Assembly (NCBI RefSeq): GCF_005144885.1
Contig: NZ_CP039690.1
Coordinates: 6,932,873-6,996,872 of the forward strand
Direction of reading: 5' to 3'
Length of the DNA: 64,000 nucleotides
From: Phreatobacter stygius
GTDB taxonomy: Bacteria; Pseudomonadota; Alphaproteobacteria; Rhizobiales; Phreatobacteraceae
Made by a program: the position numbers and the translations under genes. This document shows positions 41,599-45,120 of the stretch, piece after piece (the first letter of the stretch is position 1; each line of letters starts with the position of its first letter). The notes under the pieces were generated by a model. That model saw only the letters and a program-made list of their open reading frames with translations, made no database searches and was not told the DNA's origin.

Positions 41599-41858
41599 GC
41601 CCTTGAATCTGGCGCAGCCGCGGTTGAATGCAAGCCGTCAGGCGGTCGCGGGGCTTGATACCCCATGTGTTTCTTTGCCCCACCATCCGGCGCGAGGCGA
41701 CACAAGCGCCTGTGGCCGCGCGAATTCGTGATTGGCATTCATGCCTGGCGCAAACGATTTCATTGGCGATTTCTCCTTTGGCATATGACGATCACTCCGC
41801 TTTTGGCCTGCCGCGACGTCGCTCGGCCGGCAGTCCTTGCCCGCGAGGAGGTCTCCCG

Positions 41859-42935
41859 ATGGCTCATCTGTCCCGCCGCTTCATGGTTGCCGGCGGCCTT
41901 GCCGTTTTCACCAGCCCGGTCCTGGCCCAGCACCAGCATCACCAGGGCCAGTTCGAGCGCCTGAGCCAGCCAGGCAGGGTCGACCTGCCGGCGATCCATC
42001 ACGAACAGGTGGTCAGCGATAGCCCCGCGCCGAAAGCCGCGACCCAGGGGCGCTGGATCGATCGTGCGCCGCTGCCCGTCCCGCGCACCGAAATGGCCTG
42101 GGGCGCCGAGCGCCAGGGCAAGATGCACCTGGTCGGCGGTTATGCCGAACAGCGCGTCGACCGGCAGTATCACCACGTCTATGACGCCGCGGCCAACCGC
42201 TGGATCGCCGCCGCCGAGCTGCCGCGCGGCGCCAACCATGTCGGCGTCGCGGTCGCCGGCAACCGGCTCTACGCCATTGGCGGCTTCATCGAGCAGAACC
42301 GCACGCCCCATGCCGACTGTTTCGTCTATGGCGTCGATGGCGACACCTGGTCGAAGATCCGGCCCCTGCCCGAGGCCTGCGGCGCCATGGCCTGCGTGAC
42401 CATTGGCGATACGGTCCATGCCATCGGCGGCGCGGTCGGCAACAGTTTCGAGAACCGGAAGTCGATCGACTGGCACCTGGTCTACGACCCGAAGGACGAC
42501 AGCTGGACCCGGCGCGCGCCGCTGTTCCTGGCGCGCGACCATACCGGCACCCTGGTGGTCAACGGCCTGATCCACGTCGTCGGCGGCCGGGTCGACAGCT
42601 TCCTGACCAATTCCAACCTGCACCACAGCTACGATCCGAAGACCGATCGCTGGACCGCGCGCACGCCCTTGCCCACCGCCCGCTCCGGCCACGGCGCGGT
42701 CTGGTACCGCAACCGCATCTTCGTCATGGGCGGCGAGGGCTGGAACCGGGTCTATGGCCAGAACGAGGCTTTCGACCCGGCCACCGACAAGTGGGAGTCC
42801 TATGCGCCCATGCTGACACCGCGCCACGGCACCGGCGCGGTGGTGGTCGGCGACGCCATCCATGTCGCCGGCGGCGGGCCGCAGATGGGCGGCGCCGTCA
42901 AGAGCGCCGTGCACGAGGCCTTCACGCTGGGATGA
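41859..42935 (+). CDS. Exported kelch-repeat protein with Tat-type signal
   Basis: 358 residues. The N-terminus MAHLSRRFMVAGGLAVFTSPVLAQ has a twin-arginine motif (SRRFM) and a hydrophobic core, indicating Tat export. After a His/Gln-rich stretch (HQHHQGQ) come about five kelch repeats, recognisable as VGGYAE, AIGGFIE, AIGGAVG, VVGGRVD and VMGGEGW followed by W-containing strands, forming a beta-propeller. GAGGAGG lies 7 bases before the ATG at 41859. Neighbours do not indicate the role; the histidine-rich N-terminus could bind metal. Confidence 0.88.
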   Translation: MAHLSRRFMVAGGLAVFTSPVLAQHQHHQGQFERLSQPGRVDLPAIHHEQVVSDSPAPKAATQGRWIDRAPLPVPRTEMAWGAERQGKMHLVGGYAEQRVDRQYHHVYDAAANRWIAAAELPRGANHVGVAVAGNRLYAIGGFIEQNRTPHADCFVYGVDGDTWSKIRPLPEACGAMACVTIGDTVHAIGGAVGNSFENRKSIDWHLVYDPKDDSWTRRAPLFLARDHTGTLVVNGLIHVVGGRVDSFLTNSNLHHSYDPKTDRWTARTPLPTARSGHGAVWYRNRIFVMGGEGWNRVYGQNEAFDPATDKWESYAPMLTPRHGTGAVVVGDAIHVAGGGPQMGGAVKSAVHEAFTLG

Positions 42936-42959
42936 GCCGCCGCCGGCGGCCGGCCGGCG

Positions 42960-43280
42960 TTACTCCGGCGAGACCAGCTTCAGGCCGGCAATGCCGACGA
43001 CGATGAGCCCGATGCAGGCGAGCCGCAGAAGTTGCGCGGATTCGCCGAGCAGCGCGATGCCGAGAACGACCGTGCCGACAGTGCCGACGCCGGTCCAGAT
43101 CGCATAGGCCGTGCCGAGCGGCAGGGTCTTCAGCGCCAGGCCGAGCAGGCCCAGGCTGATGATCATGCTGACGATGGTCAACACCGTGGGGCCGAGCCGG
43201 GAAAAGCCGTCGGTATATTTCAGGCCGATGGCCCAGCCGATTTCGAACAGGCCGGCCAGCAATAGATAAACCCAGGCCAT
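42960..43280 (-). CDS. gdx: SMR-family guanidinium exporter (Gdx/SugE)
   Basis: 106 residues, four transmembrane helices. The sequence [23 protein letters not shown] contains the conserved Glu13 and the KYTDGF motif of the SugE/Gdx subgroup, which exports guanidinium in exchange for protons, rather than the multidrug EmrE subgroup. [17 protein letters not shown] is also subgroup-typical. The mRNA leader holds a two-hairpin ACGA-loop guanidine-II riboswitch and its own promoter, strongly supporting guanidinium as substrate. GGAGG is 7 bases before the ATG. Confidence 0.95.
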
Positions 43281-43298
43281 GACAGAACCTCCGTCAAC

Positions 43299-43355
43299 GG
43301 CAGGGTCGTCCCTACCTCAATCTTTCAGGGGAAACGGCGAGGTCGTCCACGCCGT
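43299..43355 (-). promoter_or_regulatory. Guanidine-II (mini-ykkC) riboswitch
   Basis: On the minus strand two hairpins carry identical ACGA loops. P1 (43355-43334) has a 6-bp ACGGCG/CGCCGT stem, a T-T mismatch, and GG-ACGA-CC at the tip. P2 (43316-43299) has a 7-bp stem ending GGG-ACGA-CCC. The linker is 17 bases. Tandem ACGR-loop hairpins upstream of SugE-type genes define the mini-ykkC class, which binds guanidine at loop-loop contacts. P2 ends 6 bases before the gdx Shine-Dalgarno sequence, consistent with translational control. Confidence 0.93.
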
Positions 43356-43360
43356 CGTCT

Positions 43361-43389
43361 CAGATAGGCCGCCGGCGCCAGGAGTTCAA
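43361..43389 (-). promoter_or_regulatory. Promoter of the riboswitch-gdx transcript
   Basis: Minus-strand TTGAAC (43389-43384), 17-base spacer, TATCTG (43366-43361). The predicted start point near 43355 coincides with the 5' base of riboswitch hairpin P1, so the transcript would begin almost exactly at the aptamer. It lies between the proS stop at 43407 and the riboswitch. Confidence 0.65.
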
Positions 43390-43406
43390 CCGGGCGCGTT
43401 TGCGCC

Positions 43407-44738
43407 TCAGGCGGCAGCCCCAGTGACCCGCGCGACGAAATCCGCCGGGCTGAGCAGTTCGCGCTCGCCGGTATTGCGCATCTTCAGCTCGACCTTGCCT
43501 TCGGCCAGGCTGCGCGGGCCGATCATCACCTGGCAGGGAATGCCGATCAGGTCGGCGGTGGCGAATTTGGCGCCCGGCCGGTCGTCGCGGTCGTCATAGA
43601 GCACTTCGACGCCCTTGGCCGAGAGCGTGCGGTAGAGCTCCTCGCAAGCCGCGTCGACCGCGCTGTCGCCCTGCTTGAGGTTCAACAGCGCGACATCGAA
43701 GGGTGCCACCGCGGCCGGCCAGCGAATGCCGGCCTCGTCGTGGCTCGCCTCGATGATGGCGGCGACCACCCGCGACGGACCGATGCCGTAGGAGCCGCCG
43801 TGGACCGGCACCGGCTTGCCGTCGGGGCCCTGGACATGGGCGCCCATCGGCTCGGAATATTTGGTGCCGAAATAGAAGATATGGCCGACCTCGATGCCGC
43901 GCGCCGAAACCCGGCTCGCCTCTGGGATAGCGGCATAGGCCGTCTGGTCATGCATTTCCGAGGTCGCCGCATAAAGCCAGGTCCATTTGGCCACCGTCGC
44001 CTTCAGGGCGTCGGCATTGTCGAAATCCGTGTCGGCGCCCGGCACCTGGAAATCCAGGTAGTCGCGATGGCAGAAGACCTCCGATTCGCCGGTGTCGGCC
44101 AGGATGATGAATTCATGGCTGAGATCGCCGCCGATCGGGCCGGTATCGGCACGCATCGGGATCGCCTTCAGGCCCAGCCGCTCGAAGGTGCGCAGATAAG
44201 CGATGAACATCTTGTTGTAGGAATGGACGGCGCTGGCCTGGTCCAGGTCGAAGGAATAGGCATCCTTCATCAGGAACTCGCGCGAGCGCATGACGCCGAA
44301 GCGCGGGCGCACCTCGTCGCGGAACTTCCACTGGATGTGATAGAGGTTCAGCGGCAGGTCCTTGTAGGACTTCACATAGGCCCGGAAGATCTCGGTGATC
44401 ATTTCCTCATTGGTCGGGCCGAACAGCATTTCGCGGTCCTGCCGGTCCCTGATCCTGAGCATTTCCTTGCCATAGGCATCGTAGCGGCCGCTCTCGCGCC
44501 ACAGGTCGGCCGACTGGATGGTCGGCATCAGCAATTCGATCGCGCCGGAACGGTTCTGCTCCTCGCGAATGATCTTGCTGACCTTCTGCAGCACGCGGTG
44601 GCCAAGCGGCAGCCAGGCATAGATGCCGGCGCTTTCCTGGCGCACCATGCCGGCGCGCAGCATCAGCCGGTGCGAGACGATTTCGGCTTCTTTCGGCGTC
44701 TCGCGCAGGATCGGCAGGAAATAGCGGGACAGGCGCAT
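43407..44738 (-). CDS. proS: Prolyl-tRNA synthetase (short alphaproteobacterial form)
   Basis: Charges tRNA-Pro. 443 residues, start [15 protein letters not shown] at 44738. Class II motifs visible include [20 protein letters not shown], the motif 2 region [25 protein letters not shown] and motif 3 [10 protein letters not shown], then the anticodon-binding domain ([22 protein letters not shown]). It lacks the INS editing insertion of the longer bacterial enzyme, as usual in this class. An upstream open extension to 44942 is not homologous. It ends 52 bases before the gdx riboswitch. Confidence 0.97.
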
Positions 44739-44771
44739 CGAAGACCTCTGAAGCACACGCAAGAGACAAAC

Positions 44772-44788
44772 GGCGCCGAAATGGCGCC
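44772..44788 (-). promoter_or_regulatory. GC hairpin in the proS leader
   Basis: GGCGCC (44772-44777) and GGCGCC (44783-44788) form a 6-bp stem with a 5-base loop, followed on the minus strand by GTTTGTCTCTT. It lies 34 bases upstream of the proS start. It might be a weak attenuator or a leader stem; no T-box features (specifier loop, TGGN bulge) are seen. Confidence 0.25.
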
Positions 44789-44908
44789 GCGGATCGGATA
44801 AGGCTGAAGCGGCCGGACGACCGCAGTGCGGGAGCGGACTTGACCTGTTTTTGGCCGATTTCGCAAGGGCGAAGCCGGCAGTCCAGCCCGAGTGGATCGG
44901 CAAGCACC

Positions 44909-44939
44909 AAAAAGAAAAGGCGGGATCAAAGATCCCGCC
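44909..44939 (-). terminator. Strong intrinsic terminator
   Basis: Minus strand: GGCGGGATC (44939-44931), loop TTT, GATCCCGCC (44927-44919), then TTTTCTTTTT (44918-44909). A perfect 9-bp stem with a T-tract. It ends either the candidate small RNA or the rnj-mce-DUF1467 message and isolates proS, which must have its own promoter in 44739-44908. Confidence 0.92.
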
Positions 44940-45120
44940 CATTCCAGGTTATGCATCAGAGATTCCTTGTCGTCGCGGTTCATCGCGCCGAAAGTCTCTT
45001 CCTTGATTAACCCATGACGGACGTCCCGATGGACGCCACACCTTAGGGGGTCTTCCTCCCAAGACCTGAGCCACGAGACCTTCCCTCTTCGTCGAAGGGG
45101 CCTCTTTCTTTGCAGCAAGG
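44909..45120 (-). ncRNA. Candidate structured small RNA, family not recognised
   Basis: A gene-free stretch between DUF1467 and proS folds into clear local hairpins on the minus strand: CTTC-GAC-GAAG (45097-45087), GGTCTT-GGGAGG-AAGACC (45066-45049) and CGTCC-ATCG-GGACG (45035-45022). AAGGTCTC and GAGACTTT can pair at longer range. It ends in a 9-bp terminator with a T-tract. TTGATG at 45154-45149 with TCTAGC 18 bases downstream could be its promoter. No 6S, SRP, RNase P or tmRNA consensus was recognised. The alternative is a long structured 3' UTR of the rnj-mce-DUF1467 mRNA. Confidence 0.45.

Follow-up and report, generated by a model that had tools for sequence, protein, structure and literature searches.

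The gdx gene and its neighbours

The window, meaning the whole 64-kb stretch of Phreatobacter stygius DNA that was analysed, carries a gdx (sugE) gene at 42960-43280 on the minus strand. It encodes a 106-residue protein of the SMR family, for which curated models and matches to solved sequences predict guanidinium export. The protein scores 134.7 bits against the NCBIfam SugE equivalog model NF008512 (cut-off 126) and 101 bits against the Pfam SMR family PF00893 (cut-off 23.7), and the other 20 SMR models listed for it in NCBIfam all score under their own cut-offs. The nearest solved sequence is 6wk5, which we take to be Gdx-Clo (103.6 bits, E 7.2e-29), while EmrE reaches 43.4 bits (E 3.9e-10). 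Gdx-Clo and the window protein align without gaps over residues 1-104, and Glu13, Trp16, Ser42, Tyr59, Trp62 and Lys101, presumably the pocket residues, are the same in both. At the sequence level no difference was found between the window protein and Gdx-Clo or the SugE exporters. An earlier, sequence-only reading of this DNA had noted SugE/Gdx signatures in this protein, and the SugE model above its cut-off and Gdx-Clo as the closest solved sequence bear this out; by homology, the protein is assigned to the Gdx/SugE subtype, nearer to SugE/Gdx than to Qac/EmrE.

The upstream gene, on the same strand as gdx, is proS (proline--tRNA ligase, 43407-44942, minus strand, from gene and domain calls), which serves as context only and whose stop lies 52 bases ahead of the aptamer match described below. 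On the other side, a kelch-repeat protein gene on the plus strand (41628-42960) stands tail to tail with gdx and ends 24 bases from the gdx end. A search for terminator-like sites between 42900 and 43700 found none.

A guanidine-II aptamer ahead of gdx

The leader of gdx contains two hairpins with ACGA loops. The first, P1 (43334-43355, minus strand), reads ACGGCG-U-GG-ACGA-CC-U-CGCCGU from 43355 to 43334 and forms eight pairs and one U.U mismatch, its arms on the minus strand being ACGGCGUGG-ACGA-CCUCGCCGU. It is followed by a linker of 17 bases (43317-43333, minus strand) and by P2 (43299-43316, minus strand), which reads GGUAGGG-ACGA-CCCUGCC from 43316 to 43299 and forms seven pairs. Six bases (GUUGAC) separate P2 from the Shine-Dalgarno sequence GGAGG (43288-43292, minus strand), which is placed 7 bases before the ATG at 43280. 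The hairpins, loops, linker and Shine-Dalgarno spacing given in the earlier reading are correct in every position, base for base.

The Rfam guanidine-II (mini-ykkC) model RF01068 gives a full-length match (1-48 of 48) at 43354-43301, scoring 36.9 bits against a gathering threshold of 32, so that the mini-ykkC design proposed from the letters passed the covariance-model check. The match has an E-value of 0.00092 when reckoned for 64 kb and all 4227 Rfam families, and among these families it is the sole match at gathering within the window; the gdx start follows 20 bases past its end. In a search of the whole genome (7.35 Mb) with this one family the locus has an E-value of 2.5e-5, a match that exceeds chance, and the genome holds two copies. 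Guanidine-I and guanidine-III riboswitches (RF00442, RF01763), which are described as responding to the same ligand and standing with similar kinds of gene (PMC12186494), gave no match at E 0.001 anywhere in the genome. The segment 43355-43299 on the minus strand is thus a guanidine-II (mini-ykkC) aptamer by its sequence, with ligand binding predicted.

The locus shares with the guanidine-II class the two ACGA-loop hairpins, the short linker, the Shine-Dalgarno sequence soon after P2 and the SMR exporter gene, and departs from it by normal variation only, such as the U.U mismatch of P1. It is an ordinary further example of a well-known control element: the available text of two papers puts the guanidine-II examples on record at 611 (PMC12186494) and at over 800 (PMC9561414), and the window contributes one more, a clean and compact guanidine-II/gdx unit.

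Conservation in relatives

RF01068 was found in 23 of 101 genomes, the window's own included, at 25 places, 24 of them over the cut-off, in a search whose stricter filters lost some weak matches. Behind these 25 aptamers stand 14 SMR genes, five PACE genes and three DUF1989 genes, and the remaining three have none of these; the SMR labels rest on motifs except for the window's own gene, whereas all five PACE genes and two of the three DUF1989 genes are called by Pfam. The aptamer-gdx unit occurs in eight of the 12 genomes of the same genus, and proS, recognised by motif, lies upstream in all eight of these aptamer-SMR loci. Further leaders came from named genomes, where 33 of the best 80 of 562 confirmed Gdx-like loci have RF01068 at gathering (6, 12, 5 and 10 in successive batches of 20). 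After removal of the duplicates L030 and L031 and of the doubtful L022, which resembles GC-rich repeat sequence, the pooled set holds 55 leaders.

Across these 55 leaders the pairing and loops of P1 and P2 are kept. The six inner positions of P1 are paired in 51-55 leaders and the four inner positions of P2 in 54-55, while the outer positions are weaker (P1 positions 7 and 8 paired in 33 and 26, P2 position 5 in 40). Changes in the stems occur on both sides; position 4 of P2, for example, is GC in 21 leaders, CG in 21 and AT in three. All 55 leaders have ACGA or ACGG as the P1 loop, and 54 have one of these as the P2 loop. This pattern indicates that both stems are maintained in relatives through compensating changes.

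Some features of these loci lie beside the unit itself. An acetyltransferase-like motif, labelled by eye, occurs upstream of the aptamer in five of the eight same-genus loci (L006, L008, L012, L013 and L019), and in L008 (1604-2047) the gene that carries it is flanked by proS and the aptamer. In the other loci, that is in the window (43355-43406), in sister genome G003 and in L014, the motif was not found upstream of the aptamer. Movement of the unit between two kinds of locus, one with proS upstream and one with the acetyltransferase-like gene, was considered and rejected, as L008 has proS on the far side of that gene and the proS motif is upstream in all eight loci. In L004, L005 and L015 guanidine-II aptamers precede the three DUF1989 genes, which presumably fit the known guanidine carboxylase context. 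Near the riboswitch-gdx unit of L102, an Oxalobacteraceae record, the other strand carries two copies of RF02278, a betaproteobacterial toxic small RNA (924-987 and 1145-1208).

Promoter and transcript start

A putative promoter precedes P1 on the minus strand, with a -35 element TTGAAC (43384-43389) and a -10 element TATCTG (43361-43366) spaced by 17 bases, as the sequence-only reading had described. A generic sigma-70 scan of 42900-43700 returned no promoter; it requires the second hexamer to end in T, and TATCTG does not. Across the 55 leaders TTG is enriched at this distance, and a positional score for the -35 and -10 elements peaks, about 10 standard deviations over background, where the -10 element ends 4-5 bases before the start of P1 in the model; in the window this element ends 6 bases before the aptamer match. 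At this place 33 of the 55 leaders have an element of the form TTG-N(16-18)-xA; at 15 shifted positions 1-4 of 55 do. This criterion was chosen after inspecting the leaders and treats the -10 element loosely. The promoter at the locus is well supported by this comparison, in which the hexamers show position-specific conservation.

The transcript is predicted to start at about 43352-43355. The earlier reading had let the transcript begin with the first base of P1 and had taken the aptamer for essentially the whole leader. For the window the first part fits the distance to the -10 element, but the closest sister genome, G003, speaks against it as a general rule. Its leader (L025, the same as named record L030) is among the 22 of the 55 that fail the promoter criterion; both TTGAAC and TATCTG are kept there, the spacer has diverged and measures 16 bases, and 36 bases separate the -10 element from the aptamer match as against 6 in the window, about 30 more. 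With these extra bases in the sister, the window transcript probably begins with P1's first base, and an aptamer that makes up the whole leader is plausible, yet neither would be a conserved requirement. The 36 bases in the sister leader (region L030:1364-1427) hold an inverted repeat, GGCCTGTCC-A-GGACAGGCC.

Switching mechanism and alternative explanations

Guanidine-II riboswitches are translational ON switches (PMC12186494, PMC9561414, PMC9094411). In the class mechanism, as the available text of two of these papers describes it, the pair of ACGR loops takes up two guanidinium ions, P1 and P2 make a kissing contact, and translation increases (PMC9561414, PMC12186494). The switch of P. aeruginosa gave a half-response at 2.2 mM guanidine in a ribosome assay, and mutation of its L1 loop abolished the response (PMC9561414). 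For the OFF state of that switch a P0 helix formed from 5' and 3' flanking sequence has been proposed (PMC9561414), while another published model locates the anti-Shine-Dalgarno sequence in the linker (PMC9094411).

The preferred interpretation, held with high confidence, is that the locus is a guanidine-II riboswitch controlling the translation of the Gdx exporter, in a promoter-aptamer-gene unit behind proS. The class-level translational ON mechanism can be applied to it firmly; the particular OFF helix suggested here, which comes from folding predictions, can be applied only loosely. In the absence of guanidine P2 would open and its 3' arm (43307-43297) would pair with the AUG and codons 2-4, lengthening a small hairpin already present over the Shine-Dalgarno sequence, and the CCCUG of the linker would pair with the 5' arm of P2. 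In the presence of guanidine the loop-loop contact would hold P2 closed, the long hairpin could not form, and Gdx would be made until guanidine had been pumped out. The proposed OFF partner in the window would thus be the 3' arm of P2, as opposed to the published linker or P0.

The predicted OFF hairpin (43269-43307, minus strand) has 16 pairs in three helices: 43307-43303 with 43273-43269 (codons 3-4), 43301-43297 with 43280-43276 (AUG and codon 2), and 43295-43290 with 43286-43281. The last of these is the small Shine-Dalgarno hairpin, which is predicted in the aptamer fold too. Folding thus yields two rival forms of the leader, the aptamer form and the long-hairpin form, and their ranking flips with the length of RNA taken. 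In RNA starting at 43354 the aptamer form is ahead by about 5 kcal/mol as long as the RNA stops short of the start codon; in RNA from 43354 to 43270-43260 the long hairpin is ahead by 2.9-4.4 kcal/mol, and in longer RNA the two forms lie within 4 kcal/mol.

The same pairing was evaluated in 43 leaders (38 gdx and 5 PACE). The P2 loop and 3' arm show more pairing with the region downstream than shuffles do (mean 4.75 against 2.02), and 16 of the 43 leaders are at or below 0.05; the leaders are interrelated, with all seven Pseudomonas leaders among these 16 and nine of the 36 others. Taken by itself, the window leader gives no significant OFF pairing, since a fraction of 0.16 of its shuffles are as strong. 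Folding with the aptamer forced makes the initiation region more open, by prediction, in 27 of the 43 leaders, less open in 11 and equally open in five (Wilcoxon 0.0014, uncorrected for relatedness). In the window this openness is 0.23 with or without the aptamer forced, as the small hairpin over the Shine-Dalgarno sequence persists in either fold. The Shine-Dalgarno sequence taken by itself is more open with the aptamer forced in only 15 of 41 leaders (two of the 43 have no recognised Shine-Dalgarno sequence), with a mean of 0.31 free and 0.28 forced, in a comparison in which P1 is mis-set in some leaders that begin with ACGC.

A different OFF helix in the same riboswitch and gene is possible but less likely than not: the linker or the P1 3' arm (ACCUC) would mask the Shine-Dalgarno sequence, as in the published linker and P0 models for E. 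coli and P. aeruginosa (PMC9094411, PMC9561414). The Shine-Dalgarno sequence is indeed predicted to pair mostly with the linker in L038, L046, L063, L067 and L101 and with P1 in L023, and in the window the ACCUC of P1 is complementary to GAGGU at the Shine-Dalgarno sequence. Against this, the window Shine-Dalgarno sequence has a predicted pairing of 0.0 with P1 or the linker; its value with P2 is likewise 0.0, and the small local hairpin accounts for all of its pairing. Moreover, if the window transcript starts at P1, no 5' flank would be available before P1 to build the published P0 helix. The minimal leader would then have a modest value of its own, in that it could test masking by P2's own 3' arm.

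In another alternative, read-through from proS, or a start farther upstream, would give most of the gdx transcript, and the aptamer would not be the whole leader; we consider this unlikely. The same-strand proS gene ending so close to the aptamer, the lack of a terminator-like site between 42900 and 43700 and the more distant hexamers of sister G003 would all suit such a transcript, but 33 of the 55 leaders have a promoter-like element about as far from P1, which argues for a local start. That the two hairpins arose by chance and form no riboswitch is extremely improbable. The Rfam score is just 4.9 bits over gathering and one of the 25 family matches (L022) looks like a repeat, but the genome-wide E-value, the position directly ahead of gdx, the eight of 12 same-genus genomes with the aptamer before gdx and the compensating stem changes all stand against it, so that comparative evidence already contradicts a chance origin. 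The guanidine-II riboswitch controlling gdx translation remains the preferred interpretation.

A second aptamer copy in the genome

The other guanidine-II aptamer of the window's genome lies at L028:4366-4408 (G000:C1:4510365-4510407) and scores 40.7 bits. It has a promoter-like TTGCAT-N17-TAGGAA element, and occurs in two of the 12 genus genomes, the window's own and G003. No Gdx gene was found behind it; the genome has a second SMR gene (72 bits), far from both RF01068 matches. About 240 bases past the second aptamer, on the same strand, stands the second of two ATP synthase subunit a genes. The suggestion that this aptamer heads a small coding gene was unsupported, one frame being open in both genomes but poorly conserved.

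Guanidine-II aptamers ahead of PACE genes

Outside the window, the aptamers of five relatives (L009, L016, L018, L021 and L023) are followed by genes of the PACE family (PF05232, chlorhexidine-type). When one riboswitch-associated PACE protein was used as the query, 40 of 297 genomes of the order proved to have homologues. Among the best 30 homologue loci (L114-L143), which are not a random sample since the query itself was riboswitch-associated, 14 have RF01068 at gathering just upstream, four of them already among the first five. In L131 the aptamer precedes the first of three tandem PACE genes. Another six of the 30 loci show RF01068 at 27.4-30.4 bits (E 0.027-0.15), and inspection of the remaining ten by eye revealed two ACGA hairpins set farther apart in three, one degenerate hairpin in three and none in four. 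The PACE homologue in the window's own genome (L130) has no RF01068 match.

It is quite probable from these gene neighbourhoods that guanidine-II riboswitches in the same order (Hyphomicrobiales, judging from the named relatives) also control a PACE subfamily. Whether guanidinium or a guanidine derivative would be the natural substrate of this riboswitch-linked subfamily is about evenly balanced. The available text of a review of PACE pumps considers it very unlikely that the recognised biocides are the pumps' physiological substrates (PMC6195760), and for that reason the association would matter more than the unit in the window. The PACE association is a better lead than the window locus. It may already be known; our search of the available literature found no paper joining the guanidine-II riboswitch and PACE. 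The term PACE is absent from the available text of PMC7266159, and in that of PMC12186494 'Pace' appears as an author name and not as a transporter.

In 21 PACE-type leaders the 3' arm of P1 and the next bases (CCUCCCC in many) are predicted to pair with the region after P2, at a mean of 3.9 against 2.0 in shuffles; seven of the 21 are at or below 0.05, in a set where some leaders are near-identical. The PACE leaders L133, L134 and L142, which RF01068 does not match, have ACGA loops 50-51 bases apart and a predicted extra hairpin between them, and possibly represent a long-linker variant.
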